A stretch of 64,000 bases of DNA from Actinomycetospora cinnamomea (GTDB lineage: Bacteria > Actinomycetota > Actinomycetes > Mycobacteriales > Pseudonocardiaceae). Made by a program: the position numbers and the translations under genes. The stretch lies in assembly GCF_003096675.1 (NCBI RefSeq), contig NZ_QEKW01000001.1, positions 372,001 through 436,000 of the forward strand, written 5' to 3'. Under the pieces are notes generated by a model, which saw only the letters and a program-made list of their open reading frames with translations, made no database searches and was not told the DNA's origin. Below, piece after piece: positions 2,119 through 57,140 of this stretch. Positions within the stretch are counted from its first letter, which is position 1. Each line of letters begins with the position of its first letter.

Positions 2119-2343
2119 TGCTCTGTACTGCTCCTCGTCTCGGCATCGCGGGCCCCGGCGCCGGCCGCGGGGTGAGGCACCCGCGCCGTGCGCCGCTCGT
2201 GTTCAGGTCGCGACCTGGAGAGAGGGTGGCCACGACAACTTCCCGATTGTGCCAGACGTCGTTCGCGCTCCGCGCATGTGCGCCCTTGTCCGTCCTGGTG
2301 CACGGACAAGCGCTCACATCCGGATGAGCACACCGACAGGTCG
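2119..2343. other. intergenic region upstream of rpsP
   Basis: No gene is visible. It must hold the leader and promoter of the leftward rpsP operon; a candidate leftward -10 hexamer (CACAAT on the minus strand) lies near 2249-2254, roughly 130 bp before the rpsP start, with no convincing -35. The right end holds the hairpin at 2285-2310 that follows pxpA. I found no recognisable S16 leader structure by eye. Confidence 0.4.
2285..2310 (-). terminator. hairpin downstream of pxpA
   Basis: Perfect 9-bp arms, CTTGTCCGT at 2285-2293 and ACGGACAAG at 2302-2310, with an 8-base loop, 34 bp beyond the pxpA stop in the direction of pxpA transcription. There is no T-run, so it is either an actinobacterial U-less terminator or an operator for the rpsP promoter. 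Confidence 0.5.
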
Positions 2344-28712: not shown

Positions 28713-28782
28713 ATGGCCTCCGGCCTCGTGAGTGGTATGGGTCGTCATGGCAACCCATATCACTCACGAGGCCGGAGGCCAT
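28713..28782. repeat. 30-bp inverted repeat between coaD and GNAT gene
   Basis: The arms at 28713-28742 and 28753-28782 are complementary at 29 of 30 positions around a 10-base loop. Each arm carries CCGGAGGCCAT on its outer end, so the same ribosome-binding-site context stands before coaD (leftward) and before the GNAT gene (rightward, whose ATG begins at 28781). It looks like one duplicated and inverted 5' region. Confidence 0.9.
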
Positions 28783-43663: not shown

Positions 43664-43779
43664 GGTGGGAGCCTCCGCAAGGACGGGCACGGGTCATTCC
43701 GGTCGGCGAGCCGACCCGGGTTCGACGCTAGCGCCCGCCGCACGACGGTCCGCACCCACCCGTAGCCCCGCTGATCCCT

Positions 43780-43826
43780 CCCGGTGCTCCGCCGACCCGA
43801 TCAGATCGGGTCGGCGGAGCACCGGG
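43780..43826. repeat. 47-bp near-perfect palindrome at the GNAT stop codon
   Basis: 23-bp arms (43780-43802 and 43804-43826) pair completely around one central base. The palindrome includes the last eight codons and the stop of the GNAT gene at 43801-44334. It lies 117 bp upstream of the ung start. It can form a very stable hairpin in either transcript. Confidence 0.9.
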
Positions 43827-44334
43827 GGCGATCATGGTCGGGAGCGAGCCCGCGGGCGAAGCAGATGCTGCCCGGGGCGTCCCGGTAGACGCCGAACCCC
43901 GGCATCTCGTGATAGCCCCGCGCCCGGTAGAACGCGATCGCCTCGGGCTGGGCGCTGCCGCTCTCGAGCACCGTGCGCCCGCACCCCGCCGCCGCGGCGG
44001 TGCGCTCGAGCTCGGCGAGCACGGCCGTCGCCAGCCCGCGCCGACGGTGCGCCGGGTCGACCCACATGCGCTTGATCTCCGCGTCGCCCGGGCGCAGCAC
44101 GTCGCGGTCCCTGGCCTCGATCGTCGCGGGCTCGTGGCGCCGCCAGCCCCCGCAGCACACCGGTCCGGTGCCGGGAAGGCTCCCGAGGAGGAAGATCCCG
44201 CGCGGCGGGCTGAACTCGGCCGGGTCGACGGGCGTGCGGTCGGCGCCGCCATAGCGCTCCACGTAGAACGCCTGCACGGCGTCGACGAACCGCACGCTCT
44301 CCGGGTCGTCGTACGCCGCGACCCGGAAGGTCAC
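43801..44334 (-). CDS. GNAT family N-acetyltransferase
   Basis: 177 residues from GTG 44334. The GNAT core is clear: AEIKRMWVDPAHRRRGLATAVLAELERTAAAAGCGRTVLESGSAQPEAIAFYRARGYHEMPGFG, with acetyl-CoA motif A HRRRGLATAVL at about residues 101-111. The substrate is unknown. A longer frame could start at GTG 44415 but would be encoded by a 16-bp stem-loop (44345-44397), so the shorter start is preferred. The last residues are encoded by a palindrome. Confidence 0.82.
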   Translation of the reverse strand: MTFRVAAYDDPESVRFVDAVQAFYVERYGGADRTPVDPAEFSPPRGIFLLGSLPGTGPVCCGGWRRHEPATIEARDRDVLRPGDAEIKRMWVDPAHRRRGLATAVLAELERTAAAAGCGRTVLESGSAQPEAIAFYRARGYHEMPGFGVYRDAPGSICFARGLAPDHDRPRCSADPI

Positions 44335-49213: not shown

Positions 49214-50370
49214 TGACCGACACCATCACCCCGCGCTCGCTCGACGAGCTGCGCGACGCCGTCATCGACCGGCCGGGCACGATCCGCATCGCGGGCGCCG
49301 GCACCGCCCACGACTGGGCCGGGACCCCGGAGCCCGCCGACACGGTCCTCGACACCACCGGGCTGTCGGGCATCGTCACCCACAACCCCGGCGACATGAC
49401 CGTCGAGGTGTGGGCCGGGACGCCGTTCGGCGCCCTGCAGACCGACCTCGGCGAGCACCACCAGCGCGTCGCGGTCGACCCCGCACGGGCCGCCGAGGGC
49501 GCCACGCTCGGCGGGCTGTTCGCCACCGCCGACGCCGGTCCCCGCTCGCTGCAGTACGGCTCGCTGCGCGACCTCGTCATCGGCGCGACCATCGTGCTCG
49601 CCGACGGCACCGTCGCGCGCTCGGGCGGGCACGTCATCAAGAACGTCGCGGGCTACGACCTGACCAAGCTGCTGCACGGCGCGCAGGGCACGCTCGGGGT
49701 GCTCGCCCGGCTGGTGCTGCGCCTGCACCCCACGCCGCAGGTCACCGCCACCGTCGCCGCGTCCTGCGAGCGCTCGGCGATGGCCGGCCTCGCGCGCCGC
49801 GTCGCCGACAGCCCGGTGGAGCCGACCGCGGTGGAGTGGCATGCCGGGCGGCTCCTGAGCCTGCTCGAGGGCTCGGAGAGCGGCGCCGAGGCCCGCGCGC
49901 GCCGGCTCGCCGAGATCCTCGGCTCCGACGCCGCCGTGCTCGCGCCCGACGACGCCACGCAGGCCTGGGAGGCCCACGCCGCGGCGGTGCGGGCCCGTAG
50001 CGACGACCGGGCGGTGTTCCGGTTCGGGGTGACGCCCTCCGAGCTCCCGCGGGTCCTCGACGCGCTGGAGTCGGCGACCGGGGTCACCGCCTCGCCGCGC
50101 ACCGGCGTCGCGACCGTGGCACTGCCCGCCGACGCCGACGTCGTGGCCACCGCCCACCGGCGCGTGGCCGAGGCCGGTGGCACGTCGACCCTGCGGCAGC
50201 GGCCCGCCGGCGCCGCGCTACCCGCGTTCGGCCCGGCACCCGCGTCCGCGACGGTGCTGCGGGCCGTCGCCGCCTCCCTCGATCCCGACCAGCGCTTCGG
50301 GCGCGGGCGCCTCGCGCCGTGGCTCCCGCTGCCAGACCAGACCGGACAGCCGACCGGAGTGAGCGCATGA
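49213..50370 (+). CDS. glcE: glycolate oxidase subunit GlcE (FAD-binding)
   Basis: 385 residues, a shorter FAD-binding PCMH protein. Features are IRIAGAGTAHDWAG, DMTVEVWAGTPFGALQTDLGEHHQRVAVDP, ATLGGLFATADAGPRSLQYGSLRDLVIGATIVLADGTVARSGGHVIKNVAGYDLTKLLHGAQGTLGVLARLVLRLHP (about residues 95-175). The C-terminus lacks the catalytic VFHAGDGNLHP segment of GlcD, as expected for GlcE. The ATG overlaps the glcD stop and the TGA overlaps the glcF start. Confidence 0.92.
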   Translation: MTDTITPRSLDELRDAVIDRPGTIRIAGAGTAHDWAGTPEPADTVLDTTGLSGIVTHNPGDMTVEVWAGTPFGALQTDLGEHHQRVAVDPARAAEGATLGGLFATADAGPRSLQYGSLRDLVIGATIVLADGTVARSGGHVIKNVAGYDLTKLLHGAQGTLGVLARLVLRLHPTPQVTATVAASCERSAMAGLARRVADSPVEPTAVEWHAGRLLSLLEGSESGAEARARRLAEILGSDAAVLAPDDATQAWEAHAAAVRARSDDRAVFRFGVTPSELPRVLDALESATGVTASPRTGVATVALPADADVVATAHRRVAEAGGTSTLRQRPAGAALPAFGPAPASATVLRAVAASLDPDQRFGRGRLAPWLPLPDQTGQPTGVSA

Positions 50371-51776
50371 CCACCCACCCCACGCCCGGCCCCACCCTCG
50401 ACTTCTCCTCCGAGCGCGGCGAGAAGCCGGCCCCGGAGCGGGCCGACCTACTCGGCGGTGCCGGACCGTCGGAGTTCGGCTCGTTCGACGCGCACCACCC
50501 GCCGGCGCAGGAACTGCTCGACGACTGCGTGCACTGCGGGTTCTGCCTGCCCACGTGCCCCACGTACGCGCTGTGGGGCGAGGAGATGGACTCCCCGCGC
50601 GGGCGCATCTACCTCATGGAGATGGCGGAGAAGGGCGAGATCCCGCTCGAGGGCTCGTTCACCACCCACATCGACCGCTGCCTGGGTTGCATGGCGTGCG
50701 TGACGGCGTGCCCGTCGGGCGTGCAGTACGACCGCCTGCTCGAGGCCACGCGCCCCCAGATCGAGCGCAACGTGCCGCGTTCGCGGTCGGATCGCTGGTT
50801 CCGCGAGGCGATCTTCGCGCTGTTCCCCTACAAGCGGCGGCTGCGCGCGGCGTCGCTGGGCGGGGCGCTGTACCAGCGGTTGCGCCCGAAGAGCATGGAC
50901 AAGCTGCTGGCCAGGGTGCCCGAGCGGTTCGGGCGGCTCGTCGCGATGGAGTCGCTGCTGCCGCCGGTGAGCGTGCGCGACGCGTTCCGCCGGATGCCAG
51001 AGCGCACGCCGGGGATCGGGCCGCGCCGTGGCCGTGTCGGGCTGCTCACCGGTTGCGTGCAGGACGTGTTCTTCCACCCGGTCAACGAGGCCACCGCCCG
51101 GGTGCTCGCCGCCGAGGGCTGGGACGTCATCGCGCCGCGGGAGCAGGCGTGCTGCGGCGCCCTGGGCCTGCACGCGGGCCGGGAGGCCGAGGCGATCGAG
51201 CGGGCGAAGAAGCTGATCGCGGTGTTCGAGCGCGCGCAGGTCGACACGATCGCCACGAACGTCGCCGGCTGCGGGTCGTCGATGAAGGAGTACGGCGAGC
51301 TGCTCGCCGACGACCCCGAGTGGGCGGAGCGGGCGGCCGCGTTCGCGGCGAAGGTGCGCGACATCTCCGAGGTGGTCGACGAGACACTCGCCGACGCCCG
51401 GGCCCGGCGGCACCCGATCGAGGCGCGCGTGGTCTACCACGACGCGTGCCACCTCGGGCACGCGCAGAAGATCCGTAGCGAGCCGCGGCGGGTGCTGCGG
51501 GCGATCCCGGGTGTCGAGCTCCTCGAGCTGCCCGAGGCGGAGATCTGCTGCGGGTCGGCGGGGATCTACAACATGCTCCAGCCGCAGGCGGCGAGCGACC
51601 TCGGCCACCGCAAGGCCGGCAACATCCGCGGCACCGGCGCCGACCTGCTCGTCACCGCCAACCCGGGGTGTCTGCTGCAGATCCGCAAGTACCTCGGCGC
51701 CGACCTGCCGATGCTCCACCCGATCCAGCTCGTCGACGCCTCCATCCGCGGCGTCCGGCCGCCGGAGATGGGCTGA
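50367..51776 (+). CDS. glcF: glycolate oxidase iron-sulfur subunit GlcF
   Basis: 469 residues. Two 4Fe-4S ferredoxin motifs, CVHCGFCLPTCPTY (about residues 54-67) and CLGCMACVTACPSG (about 105-118), are followed by two CCG (cysteine-rich) domains: GVRLLTGC-type GLLTGCVQDVFF with EQACCGALGLHAG, and YHDACHLGHAQ with EAEICCGSAGIYN. It passes electrons from GlcDE to the quinone pool. Four-bp overlap with glcE (ATGA). No permease gene follows; the operon ends at a 46-bp palindrome. Confidence 0.94.
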   Translation: MTTHPTPGPTLDFSSERGEKPAPERADLLGGAGPSEFGSFDAHHPPAQELLDDCVHCGFCLPTCPTYALWGEEMDSPRGRIYLMEMAEKGEIPLEGSFTTHIDRCLGCMACVTACPSGVQYDRLLEATRPQIERNVPRSRSDRWFREAIFALFPYKRRLRAASLGGALYQRLRPKSMDKLLARVPERFGRLVAMESLLPPVSVRDAFRRMPERTPGIGPRRGRVGLLTGCVQDVFFHPVNEATARVLAAEGWDVIAPREQACCGALGLHAGREAEAIERAKKLIAVFERAQVDTIATNVAGCGSSMKEYGELLADDPEWAERAAAFAAKVRDISEVVDETLADARARRHPIEARVVYHDACHLGHAQKIRSEPRRVLRAIPGVELLELPEAEICCGSAGIYNMLQPQAASDLGHRKAGNIRGTGADLLVTANPGCLLQIRKYLGADLPMLHPIQLVDASIRGVRPPEMG

Positions 51777-51782
51777 CCGTCC

Positions 51783-51828
51783 TACGTGCGTGATCTTCTG
51801 AGCTATAGCCCAGAAGATCACGCACGTA
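51783..51828. repeat. 46-bp palindromic element, family A copy 1
   Basis: The palindrome begins TACGTGCGTGATCTTCTGAG and ends with its complement; 22 of 23 base pairs match (51801 and 51810 do not). It starts 7 bp after the glcF stop and its last base is next to the thiL stop codon (51829-51831), so it can serve as a bidirectional terminator. A 48-bp perfect copy lies inside a coding region at 56833. Confidence 0.95.
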
Positions 51829-52857
51829 CTACCGCCAGTGCAGGTAGCCCGGGTCGCCGGAGCCGCCCCAGCGGTCGGCGTCGACGGTGACGCCCGTGCC
51901 GGCGCGCACCTCGCCGCACACCACCCAGTCGGCGGGCACGACGTCCTCGCTCGGGAACGTGGCCACGAGTGCGTGGTCCTCGCCGCCGGTGAGCGCCCAG
52001 CCCAGGGCGTCGCCGCCGAGGGCCGAGGCGACGTCGCGCAGCTTGTCGGCCACGGGCACCAGGCGCGAGGACAGGTCGACGTGCACGCGCGAGGCGGCGG
52101 CGACGTGGCCCAGGTCGGCGAGCAGCCCGTCCGAGGTGTCGATCATCGACGTGGCACCGGCGCGCGCCGCGACCGGGCCGGCGCGCCACGGCGGGCGGGG
52201 GGTGCGGTGCGCGGCCACCATGGCCACCGGGGAGCGGAAGCCGCGCCGCAGCACCGCCATCCCCGCCGCCGACCACCCCAGCTGCCCGCACACGGCCACC
52301 ACGTCGCCCGGGCGCGCCCCGGACCGCGTGACGGCCGCCCGGCCCTCCAGGTCGCCGAGCGCCGTGATGGACACCACCAGCGTGTCCGCCGACACGGTGT
52401 CGCCCCCGACCACGCCGATCCCGGCGTCCGCGGCGGCGTCCCACACCCCGGCGGCGAGCCCGTCGAGGACCTCCGTGCTCGTGTCGCCCGGGCAGGCGAG
52501 CGAGAGCAGCAGCGCGGTCGGCACCGCGCCCATGGCCCCGATGTCGGCGAGGTTCGCGGCCACCGCCTTGCGGCCGACCTGCTCGGGTGCCGACCAGTCC
52601 AGTCGGAAGTGCACGCCCTGGACCAGCGTGTCCACGGTCGCCACGACCCGCCCGTCGGGCGCCGCGACCACCGCGGCGTCGTCGCCCGGGCCCAGCAGCG
52701 TCTGCTCGGGCTGGAAGCGCTCCCCGGTCAGGCGGTCGATGACGCCGAACTCGCCGAGCTCCGCCGCGGTCTCGCCCGCCTCGGGCGCGCCGGTACCCCG
52801 GCGGGCGGTCCCCCCGGTTCGTCCGTGTCCCCCGCGCCCGTTCGCCGTCCGGCTCAC
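51829..52857 (-). CDS. thiL: thiamine-monophosphate kinase
   Basis: 342 residues. ThiL phosphorylates thiamine monophosphate to the active cofactor. Motifs of the PurM/ThiL ATPase family: LLGPGDDAAVV (about residues 55-65), TLVQGVHFRLDW, GRKAVAANLADIGAMGA, GVVGGDTVSA, IDTSDGLLADLGHVA and TGGEDHALVATF. The first 30 residues are a Gly/Arg-rich extension. GTG 52857 is the start used; the conserved fold begins about residue 33. It is divergent from the small Lrp-like gene with 83 bp between, as in many actinobacteria. Confidence 0.95.
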   Translation of the reverse strand: MSRTANGRGGHGRTGGTARRGTGAPEAGETAAELGEFGVIDRLTGERFQPEQTLLGPGDDAAVVAAPDGRVVATVDTLVQGVHFRLDWSAPEQVGRKAVAANLADIGAMGAVPTALLLSLACPGDTSTEVLDGLAAGVWDAAADAGIGVVGGDTVSADTLVVSITALGDLEGRAAVTRSGARPGDVVAVCGQLGWSAAGMAVLRRGFRSPVAMVAAHRTPRPPWRAGPVAARAGATSMIDTSDGLLADLGHVAAASRVHVDLSSRLVPVADKLRDVASALGGDALGWALTGGEDHALVATFPSEDVVPADWVVCGEVRAGTGVTVDADRWGGSGDPGYLHWR

Positions 52858-55754: not shown

Positions 55755-57140
55755 TCAGCCGCCGAGGACGGTGGTCAGCCGTCGCAGGGCGTCGTCGAGC
55801 TCGGCGGCGGTCGGTCCGGCCCAGCCGACGAGCACGCCGCACGCGCGGGGCACGGCCGGGTCGAGGTGGCAGGGGCCGAGCGCGGTGAGGTGCACGCCGT
55901 GGTGGGCCGCCTCGTCGACGACCGCGTCCTCGGCCGCCCCGTCGGGCAGCGGGACGACGAGGTGGGCGCCGGCCCGGTCGCCGCGCACCGCGTGACCGCC
56001 CGCGGCGACGGCGTCGACCACCCGGGCGCGGCGGGCGGCGAGCTCGCGGCGCAGCCGGGCGAGGTGGCGGGCCAGCGCGCCGTCGGCGTGCAGTGCGGCG
56101 ACGACCTGCTGGCCGGCCGGCGGGGGGCGCACGCCGGTCGCCCGGCGGCGGGCGAGCACGCGCTCGCGCCAGGCCGGGGGCGCGACCATCCAGCCGGCGC
56201 CGAGGGTCGGGGTCAGCACCTTGCTCGTCGTGCCCAGGTGCACGGTGACGTCGGGCCCCAGGCCGGCGAGCAGGGGCAGCGGGGCCACGTCGTAGCGCAG
56301 CTCGCCGTCGTAGTCGTCCTCGACCAGCAGCAGGCCCTCGTCGCGGGCGCGGGCGACGAGCGCGGCGCGCCGGGCCACGGGCAGGCGGGCACCGAGCGGG
56401 TACTGGTGCGCCGGCGTCACGTAGACGGCGTCGACGCCCCCGGGGACGTCGTCGACGCGCAGGCCCTCGTCGTCCACCCCGACGCCCACGACCTCCGCGC
56501 CGGCGTCACGCAACAGGGCCGTGGCGCGCAGGTAGCCGGGGTCCTCGACGGCGACGCGCGGCGGGCGCCCGCGATCCGCGGCCAGCAGCGCGATCACCTC
56601 GGCGCACCCGTCGGTGGTGCCCGAGGTCGCGAGGACGTCGTCGGGCGCGGCCGCGAGCCCGCGGTGGTGCAGGAGCAGGCGGGCGACGGCGTCGCGGTAG
56701 GCGGGGACGCCGGCGTGCTCGGGCCTGGTGGCAAGCTCGAGGTCCCCGGCCCGCCGCCAGGCCCGGCGCCACGCCCGCCGGTCGAGCACCTCCGTGCACG
56801 GCGCGCCGGGCCGTAGGTCGATCAGGGCTTCGCCACGTGCGTGATCTTCTGAGCTATAGCTCAGAAGATCACGCACGTGGGAGGTGGCCAGCACGTACGT
56901 GCCGGCGCCGCGGCGGGGGCCGAGCCAGCCCTCGGCGACGAGCTGGTCGTAGGCGGCGGCGGTCACCGTGCGGCTGACGCCCAGCTCCTCGGCCAGCGAC
57001 CGGGTCGACGGGACGCGGTGCCCGACCCGGAGGACACCCCGCGCCGCCGCGTCCCGTAGCCCGTCGGCCAGCTGCACCGCGAGCGGGGTCGGCACCGACC
57101 GGTCGAGCGGGAGCACGAGCTCCGGGGGCAGCCCGCGCAC
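55755..57140 (-). CDS. MocR/PdxR-type GntR-aminotransferase regulator
   Basis: 461 residues. An N-terminal GntR winged helix, LADGLRDAAARGVLRVGHRVPSTRSLAEELGVSRTVTAAAYDQLVAEGWL (about residues 22-70), is joined to a class I aminotransferase domain with LATSGTTDGCAEVIALL, YVTPAHQYPLGARLP, LLVEDDYDGELRYD and the PLP Lys in HLGTTSKVLTPTLGAGW. MocR proteins sense PLP or amino-acid adducts and usually control a divergent gene, here a PNPOx-like one. The interdomain linker (about residues 87-102) is encoded exactly by a 48-bp palindrome, apparently inserted in frame. Confidence 0.9.
   Translation of the reverse strand: MRGLPPELVLPLDRSVPTPLAVQLADGLRDAAARGVLRVGHRVPSTRSLAEELGVSRTVTAAAYDQLVAEGWLGPRRGAGTYVLATSHVRDLLSYSSEDHARGEALIDLRPGAPCTEVLDRRAWRRAWRRAGDLELATRPEHAGVPAYRDAVARLLLHHRGLAAAPDDVLATSGTTDGCAEVIALLAADRGRPPRVAVEDPGYLRATALLRDAGAEVVGVGVDDEGLRVDDVPGGVDAVYVTPAHQYPLGARLPVARRAALVARARDEGLLLVEDDYDGELRYDVAPLPLLAGLGPDVTVHLGTTSKVLTPTLGAGWMVAPPAWRERVLARRRATGVRPPPAGQQVVAALHADGALARHLARLRRELAARRARVVDAVAAGGHAVRGDRAGAHLVVPLPDGAAEDAVVDEAAHHGVHLTALGPCHLDPAVPRACGVLVGWAGPTAAELDDALRRLTTVLGG
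56833..56880. repeat. 48-bp perfect palindrome inside MocR gene, family A copy 2
   Basis: All 24 base pairs match. It begins CCACGTGCGTGATCTTCTGA on the plus strand. On the coding strand it supplies 16 whole codons plus flanks, reading through HVRDLLSYSSEDHARG between the winged helix and the aminotransferase domain. Forty-three of the central 44 bases equal those of the copy at 51784-51827. It is AT-richer than the gene around it. The size is a multiple of three, so the frame is kept. Confidence 0.97.

Follow-up and report, generated by a model that had tools for sequence, protein, structure and literature searches.

Palindromes of about 40 bp occupy the same sites in the genomes of a clade of Actinomycetospora species, which are soil bacteria, but the sequences found at these sites differ between species while the mirror symmetry is kept. 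Copies at different sites of one genome are alike, some copies combine two unlike arms, and copies within genes are read in a single frame. That the same sites hold different letters with their symmetry intact suggests that the copies overwrite one another. The analysis followed up an earlier note on a stretch of 64,000 nucleotides from Actinomycetospora cinnamomea, referred to here as the window; the genome of this species is the source genome.

The palindrome in the window and its family

The palindrome, to which no strand is assigned, lies at 56833..56880 and is perfect over 48 bp. Its arms (56833-56856 and 56857-56880) are 24 nt each and 100% complementary with a spacer of 0, in agreement with the 24 of 24 base pairs reported earlier. 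It is in frame within a gene for a MocR-type regulator on the minus strand (55755..57140), and its 40-bp core spans 56837-56876. The regulator has a GntR domain (PF00392, residues 21-83) and an aminotransferase I/II domain (Aminotran_1_2, PF00155, residues 135-455); because the palindrome falls between the two, the insert is in the linker. The earlier note had it contribute exactly 16 codons to this linker. The linker site and the 16-codon length both hold, but the ends of the palindrome lie off the codon boundaries. It was also wrong in supposing that all frames can be open: frame 2 alone, one of three, is open, with the translation HVRDLLSYSSEDHAR, there are stops in frames 1 and 3, and coding copies elsewhere keep almost without exception to one phase, as described below. 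The strand of the palindrome folds far more strongly than its shuffles, with z scores of -10.4 as DNA and -10.2 as RNA.

A second copy (51784..51827), about 5 kb away, matches 56835-56878 at 43 of 44 bases, as first described, and the 40-bp core is found again there at 51786-51825 with 1 mismatch. The core had 0 matches in 100 shuffles of the window, which rules out a chance origin of its recurrence. The second copy lies between two convergent genes, which stop 7 bp and 1 bp short of the 44-bp element. One of these (50367..51776, plus strand, with the start placed by a custom gene caller) encodes a CCG/4Fe-4S protein that is probably GlcF-like; the other (51829..52857, minus strand) encodes an AIRS-family protein that is probably ThiL-like. 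A known Rfam family was rejected, with 0 matches at the gathering score in the window.

Other inverted repeats were seen in the window. An imperfect 40-bp element at 2278..2317, without an assigned strand, resembles the CCGTG-type family discussed below. At 28728..28767, again without a strand, is a 40-bp palindrome of a sister type, with GTGAGTG...CACTCAC ends and a GGGTCGTC interior. It forms the center of a 70-bp near-perfect inverted repeat between divergent genes (28713-28782), which reaches 15 bp past the element on each side; interiors similar to the GGGTCGTC type occur in relatives. A 63-bp inverted repeat at 43772-43834 (31-nt arms, 94%) overlaps the 3' end of a minus-strand gene called by the custom gene caller, and is possibly an ordinary terminator.

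When the source genome (50 contigs, 5.97 Mb) was searched, the 40-bp core turned up 51 times at a limit of 3 mismatches; 24 of these copies are exact, and a reversed control of the core gave 0 copies. The earlier note had counted it against its own proposal if there were just two copies and no empty sites; two copies alone is a reading that was dropped on finding the 51. The proposal itself, of palindromes that are dispersed as a family and can be inserted in frame into genes, is borne out within Actinomycetospora. As for the description "mobile or spreading", the dispersal stands, but the sites that could be compared are mostly shared by the clade, and it is the sequence occupying them that changes. 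With laxer matching inside the fetched loci, 55 source-genome copies were examined. In addition, a catalogue of 192 elements was drawn from all loci on the basis of GTG and CAC ends and at least 15 of 20 pairs; its loci were mostly picked for carrying elements, and orthologous copies were counted separately. In nearly all elements listed, the core ends in GTGCG or GTGAG on both sides.

The 40-bp core pattern was present in 6 of 61 genomes (the source and 60 relatives), all in the genus. One wider core pattern, run over a contig collection that may omit the source genome, matched 69 stretches, all of them in Actinomycetospora records. Because elements are also present in the assemblies of four named species and in one MAG, an assembly artifact is ruled out. 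A pattern based on the ends alone matched 10 of 18 genus genomes, with 11-77 copies each, and, in a sample of the family, 49 of 297 genomes and 17 of 46 genera; many of the matches in other genera are single and may be due to chance, and three genomes outside the genus have 58-83. Among the other-genus genomes, G226, G069, G061 and G145 were flagged; in G145 (genus g16) the interior is of the AAGTGTCGTT type. A sister family of 40-bp elements, the CCGTG type, is found in 10 of 18 genus genomes, with 45 copies in G014, 27 in G003 and 16 in the source genome. Since G014 and G003 are outside the clade, an origin of the superfamily in the clade alone is ruled out. Two elements of unlike type were seen 26 bp apart in G017 (contig C11, 239742-239847).

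Genomic context and coding copies

Genes flanking the elements were called with a custom codon-usage gene caller. Of the 55 source-genome copies, 48 are extragenic (28 convergent, 15 tandem and 5 divergent) and 7 are coding. Convergent sites are over-represented: 28 of the 48 intergenic copies occupy one, whereas of the adjacent gene pairs in the window 11 of 58 are convergent (Fisher p 4e-5). For 26 of these 28 copies, each of the two stop codons falls either in the 44-bp element itself or no more than 10 bp from it, and at 20 of 71 gene 3' ends facing intergenic copies the stop codon has an identical position inside the element. The catalogue of 192 comprises 95 convergent, 48 tandem, 38 coding and 11 divergent copies; 79 of the 95 convergent copies are within 20 bp of both stops.

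The excess of convergent sites, the closeness of the stops, the strong RNA fold and the many double changes described below would all be expected if the elements were selected as bidirectional RNA hairpins, serving as terminators or 3'-end stabilizers, and drifted by compensatory mutation. We consider this improbable. On the transcribed strand, G.U mismatches are not in excess of A.C mismatches (17 versus 27, one-sided p 0.95, beside 50 other mismatches), either for tandem copies (10 versus 16, others 26) or for coding copies (7 versus 11, others 24); since G.U does not exceed A.C, selection at the RNA level is unsupported, although the numbers are small. Moreover, the element is also preserved within coding genes, and independent drift can give neither 24 exact copies in one genome nor a likeness within genomes above that at orthologous sites.

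The 7 coding copies of the source genome are found in the genes for the MocR regulator, an EgtC-like glutamine amidotransferase, a GT9 glycosyltransferase and a PfkB-cytidylyltransferase, and at 3 places in NRPS-like ORFs, the NRPS and EgtC labels being our own probable assignments from sequence. Of the 38 coding copies in the catalogue, 37 share one phase, and the one that departs from it has 15 of 20 pairs. Three copies are located within 9 kb of NRPS-like coding sequence (L129, near 4020 and 7158, and L002, near 1520), and two NRPS-like copies share one position, following the adenylation-domain motif YGPTET.

Shared sites and the sequences that fill them

The MocR site is filled by a palindrome-like insert at the same place in all 10 genomes of the clade (G004 is partial), and no insert was seen there by eye in the 8 other genus genomes, among which G001 is poorly aligned. 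The earlier note had held that MocR orthologs all carrying the same residues without DNA palindromy would tell against a mobile element; the clade genes do carry the insert, but with palindromy and with different residues. The EgtC-like site is filled in 8 of 18 genomes, that is, in 8 of the 10 clade members, with 17-20 of 20 pairs formed (G007 is cut short). In the other 10 of 18, two sisters within the clade (G010 and G011) among them, a short loop takes its place, with 9-11 pairs at best; related proteins that lack the insert, whose existence the earlier note had also made a point at issue, are thus at hand. The GT9 site is filled in 9 of the 16 genomes examined, all 9 of them clade members (9 of 9 examined), and the 7 others are without it; here G004 is partial and G015 gave no match.

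In 20-kb syntenic stretches, the spacing of all four sites in one region is preserved in 5 of 9 genomes of the clade (A. cinnamomea, A. straminea, A. callitridis, A. succinea and G011). G012 and G008 have three sites each with at least 16 pairs, G008 has a fourth with 14, and A. chibensis and G007 have fewer sites within the stretch fetched. The palindrome is absent from A. straminea at one L105 site, from A. succinea at one L114 site, from A. chibensis at the second window site and from G012 at one site. A FastTree analysis of 3 concatenated proteins, with the insert masked and G004 dropped, joined A. cinnamomea with G007, A. straminea with G008, A. succinea with G011 and A. chibensis with A. 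callitridis at support of 0.98-1.0; within the clade, the deeper nodes have weak support. The sites are presumably ancestral and would not have been hit repeatedly.

Element sequences were compared at seven sites, chosen for a copy present in the source genome, and 52 of 53 site-by-species cells were kept after a flank check in which one flank at 0.65 or above was enough. Mean identity was 0.820 within genomes (n=133), 0.704 at orthologous sites (n=172) and 0.698 between unrelated sites (n=1021); without A. cinnamomea and A. straminea, these means were 0.749, 0.699 and 0.687. When species were shuffled within sites, the within-genome mean was reached in 0 of 1000 shuffles, both with and without these two species. 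When sites were shuffled within species, the orthologous mean was reached in 75 of 1000 shuffles (84 of 1000 without the two species), which leaves room for a slight memory of the site.

The same turnover is seen between sister species, where mean identity was 0.910 for the flanks and 0.703 for the elements, and the element was lower in 14 of 15 comparisons. These are the 15 of 20 in which both flanks could be aligned; in the 5 that were dropped, element identities were 21, 29, 28, 31 and 20 of 40. At the GT9 site, A. straminea and G008 agree at 18 of 40 positions of the element but have flanks at 0.93 and 0.94, and their elements form 20 and 18 of 20 pairs. The MocR site holds the GTGCGTGATCTTC (GTGCGTG) type in A. 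cinnamomea, A. straminea and A. succinea and other types in their sisters G007, G008 and G011. Homogenization is incomplete, because in A. succinea and in G011 the sites of one genome hold different types. Parallel change within genomes and dyad symmetry could also point to sites recognized by a DNA-binding protein that changed its specificity from species to species, all sites changing in parallel. To this we give very little credence: unlike interiors coexist in one genome, sites are found within unrelated genes, and neither double changes at 14 of 18 pairs nor hybrid arms, both described next, would be expected of it.

The pairing analysis covered 37 of the 41 distinct elements from shared sites, in which 95.3% of cells are paired. 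Double-changed cells numbered 132, compared with 42.3 in shuffles (reached in 0 of 500) and 5-31 in slid controls. Of 18 pairs, 14 showed double changes, compared with 11.0 in shuffles, of which 3 of 500 reached the observed number, and there were 29 further pair types (shuffles 24.8, 11 of 500). These figures express kept pairing and are no proof of selection, because sequences that are kin can exceed shuffles even if they have no structure, and the elements were found by their symmetry. Copies losing symmetry are likewise under-counted, since symmetry was the criterion by which elements were found (the catalogue required 15 or more of 20 pairs), and several absences were seen. Over the 192 elements, the least symmetric positions are the two central pairs (0.656 and 0.839, versus 0.865-1.0 in pairs 1-18), as expected of a hairpin loop. 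Four pairs (1, 2, 3 and 5) never varied among the 37 elements.

At least one exact GTGCGTGATCTTC arm is present in 59 of 60 source-genome elements examined, and in 13 of these 59 the second arm is unlike the first. At least five are hybrids that join one exact GTGCGTGATCTTC arm, the dominant type, to a GTGAG-type arm with 3-5 differences; in eight further elements the second arm has 1-2 differences from GTGCGTGATCTTC. In a strict test, 27 of 197 elements are asymmetric at a minimum of two outer positions, and for 4 of these 27 both 13-base arms are found in near-perfect elements elsewhere. We read the hybrids as half-overwritten copies.

The main rival to overwriting is enzymatic. A putative transposase or HUH-type nuclease would act on the GTGAG/GTGCG ends and the hairpin and would replace or re-insert whole palindromes, so that occupancy and sequence swaps would amount to transposition into pre-existing palindromes. 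The four invariant pairs are what such an enzyme might recognize, and the spacing of the half-sites was identical in all source-genome matches listed, with 12-20 allowed. The end pattern also extends to other genera, and the location pattern is like that of REPs as outlined in PMC3733652. Half-swapped elements, however, suit patch copying better than whole insertion. Among the matches listed, six GTGCGTGATCTTC arms had no recognized partner; five belong to hybrid palindromes and the sixth is within a gene. None terminated a longer element, of the kind that the autonomous partner of a MITE with matching ends would be, for the one arm sequence followed in one genome. The domain Y1_Tnp (PF01797, RAYT/IS200), which alone among transposase and HUH families was searched for, was found in 0 of 18 genus genomes at E 0.001, where 3 of the 18 are less than 90% complete and a control was positive in 5 of 14 named genomes. 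On this result RAYT mobilization was ruled out. An enzymatic origin of the swaps seems to us unlikely, if still a serious contender.

Possible mechanism and relation to known palindromic repeats

The account that we favor, with slightly more confidence than doubt, is that the elements are REP-like hairpins of about 40-50 bp which settled early in one clade, are overwritten from copies in the same genome and have their symmetry restored arm to arm. They would have taken up their fixed sites early within a single Actinomycetospora clade, with no RAYT detectable. At replication the hairpin would fold, and the nascent strand could switch to another copy by way of the shared outer bases. The sequence at a site would be overwritten repeatedly from copies in the same genome, often by one arm per event, and a second switch within the hairpin could copy arm onto arm and so bring the symmetry back, as in quasipalindrome template switching. 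Coding copies may persist because one frame is open and the polar peptide would be tolerated in linkers and loops.

We infer both the overwriting mechanism itself and the first seeding of new sites. The copying would be ectopic, by template switching or by gene conversion, with the invariant outer bases as primer; these bases equally suit recognition by some enzyme, a point against template switching, and about 40 bp is short for RecA ectopic conversion. No donor-recipient event was seen, with one genome per species. Since shared positions hold swapped contents, the question of gene conversion is directly testable with strains of one species. Loss of SbcD as a cause was rejected because matches to TIGR00619, all below the cut-off and found in 17 of 18 genomes, in both groups, fail to separate the clade from the outgroup.

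REPs are described as short palindromes in many copies, near stops between convergent genes, which supply stop codons and are sometimes found in ORFs (PMC3733652). The elements studied here are like REPs (GTAG/CGTC), which are 20-40-bp palindromes in many copies, mostly extragenic and next to the stops of convergent or unidirectional genes; compare the 51 copies, 48 of 55 extragenic, and the stops within 10 bp at 26 of 28 convergent source copies and within 20 bp at 79 of 95 in the catalogue. According to the same paper, two Xanthomonas species have different REPs at about the same recB site (PMC3733652), which is a precedent for site sharing. In contrast to REPs (for their classes and RAYT, PMC3686654) and REPINs (PMC3116915), the present elements are symmetric 40-bp units without a GTAG/CGTC tag, Y1_Tnp is found in 0 of 18 genomes, and sequence turnover at shared sites has been measured.

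Rickettsia palindromic elements (RPE) of about 150 bp are inserted in frame into many unrelated genes, according to part of PMC10969869, and in this respect resemble the 7 of 55 source copies, and the catalogue coding copies with their single phase. RPEs are said in a passage of PMC6649704 to lose repeat identity over time; compared by description, they are thus longer, at about 150 bp, and lose identity, whereas here the symmetry is kept while the sequence changes. The same source, in the portion cited, describes perfect coding palindromes in mitochondrial genes of Nematomorpha, with arms kept identical, and suggests a repeat-conversion mechanism (PMC6649704). These are likewise perfect palindromes inside genes, but that portion describes no dispersed repeat family, whereas here the copies at separate sites of a genome resemble each other. 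Through quasipalindrome template-switch mutation, an imperfect inverted repeat comes closer to perfection (PMC8604942), and homogenization of inverted-repeat arms by template switching has been reported (PMC8604942 and PMC7202029). This process acts within one repeat and, alone, cannot explain sequences shared between sites. In the open-access literature, searched by title and the start of the abstract, no palindromic repeats of Actinomycetospora or Pseudonocardiaceae were found, and nothing on the Actinomycetospora family was found there under convergent-gene palindromes in Actinobacteria, concerted evolution or REP turnover.

The spread of REPs is today usually put down to RAYTs. In the family described here, for which no RAYT was detected, a 40-bp unit has shared positions, near-identical flanks and swapped contents. 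Host proteins keep a loop of about 15 residues whose sequence is apparently set by the symmetry of the DNA and not by protein function. It is conceivable, though we would put it somewhat short of an even chance, that dispersed bacterial palindromes can be self-renewing, transposase-free selfish DNA which holds fixed sites, some of them within genes, by arm-by-arm overwriting, with the symmetry maintained by copying between the arms. The title of a 1988 review already asks whether REPs evolve by gene conversion (cited in the reference list of PMC3116915); if the overwriting proposed here is true, the Actinomycetospora family would provide direct comparative evidence for this old idea of evolution by gene conversion in such repeats.
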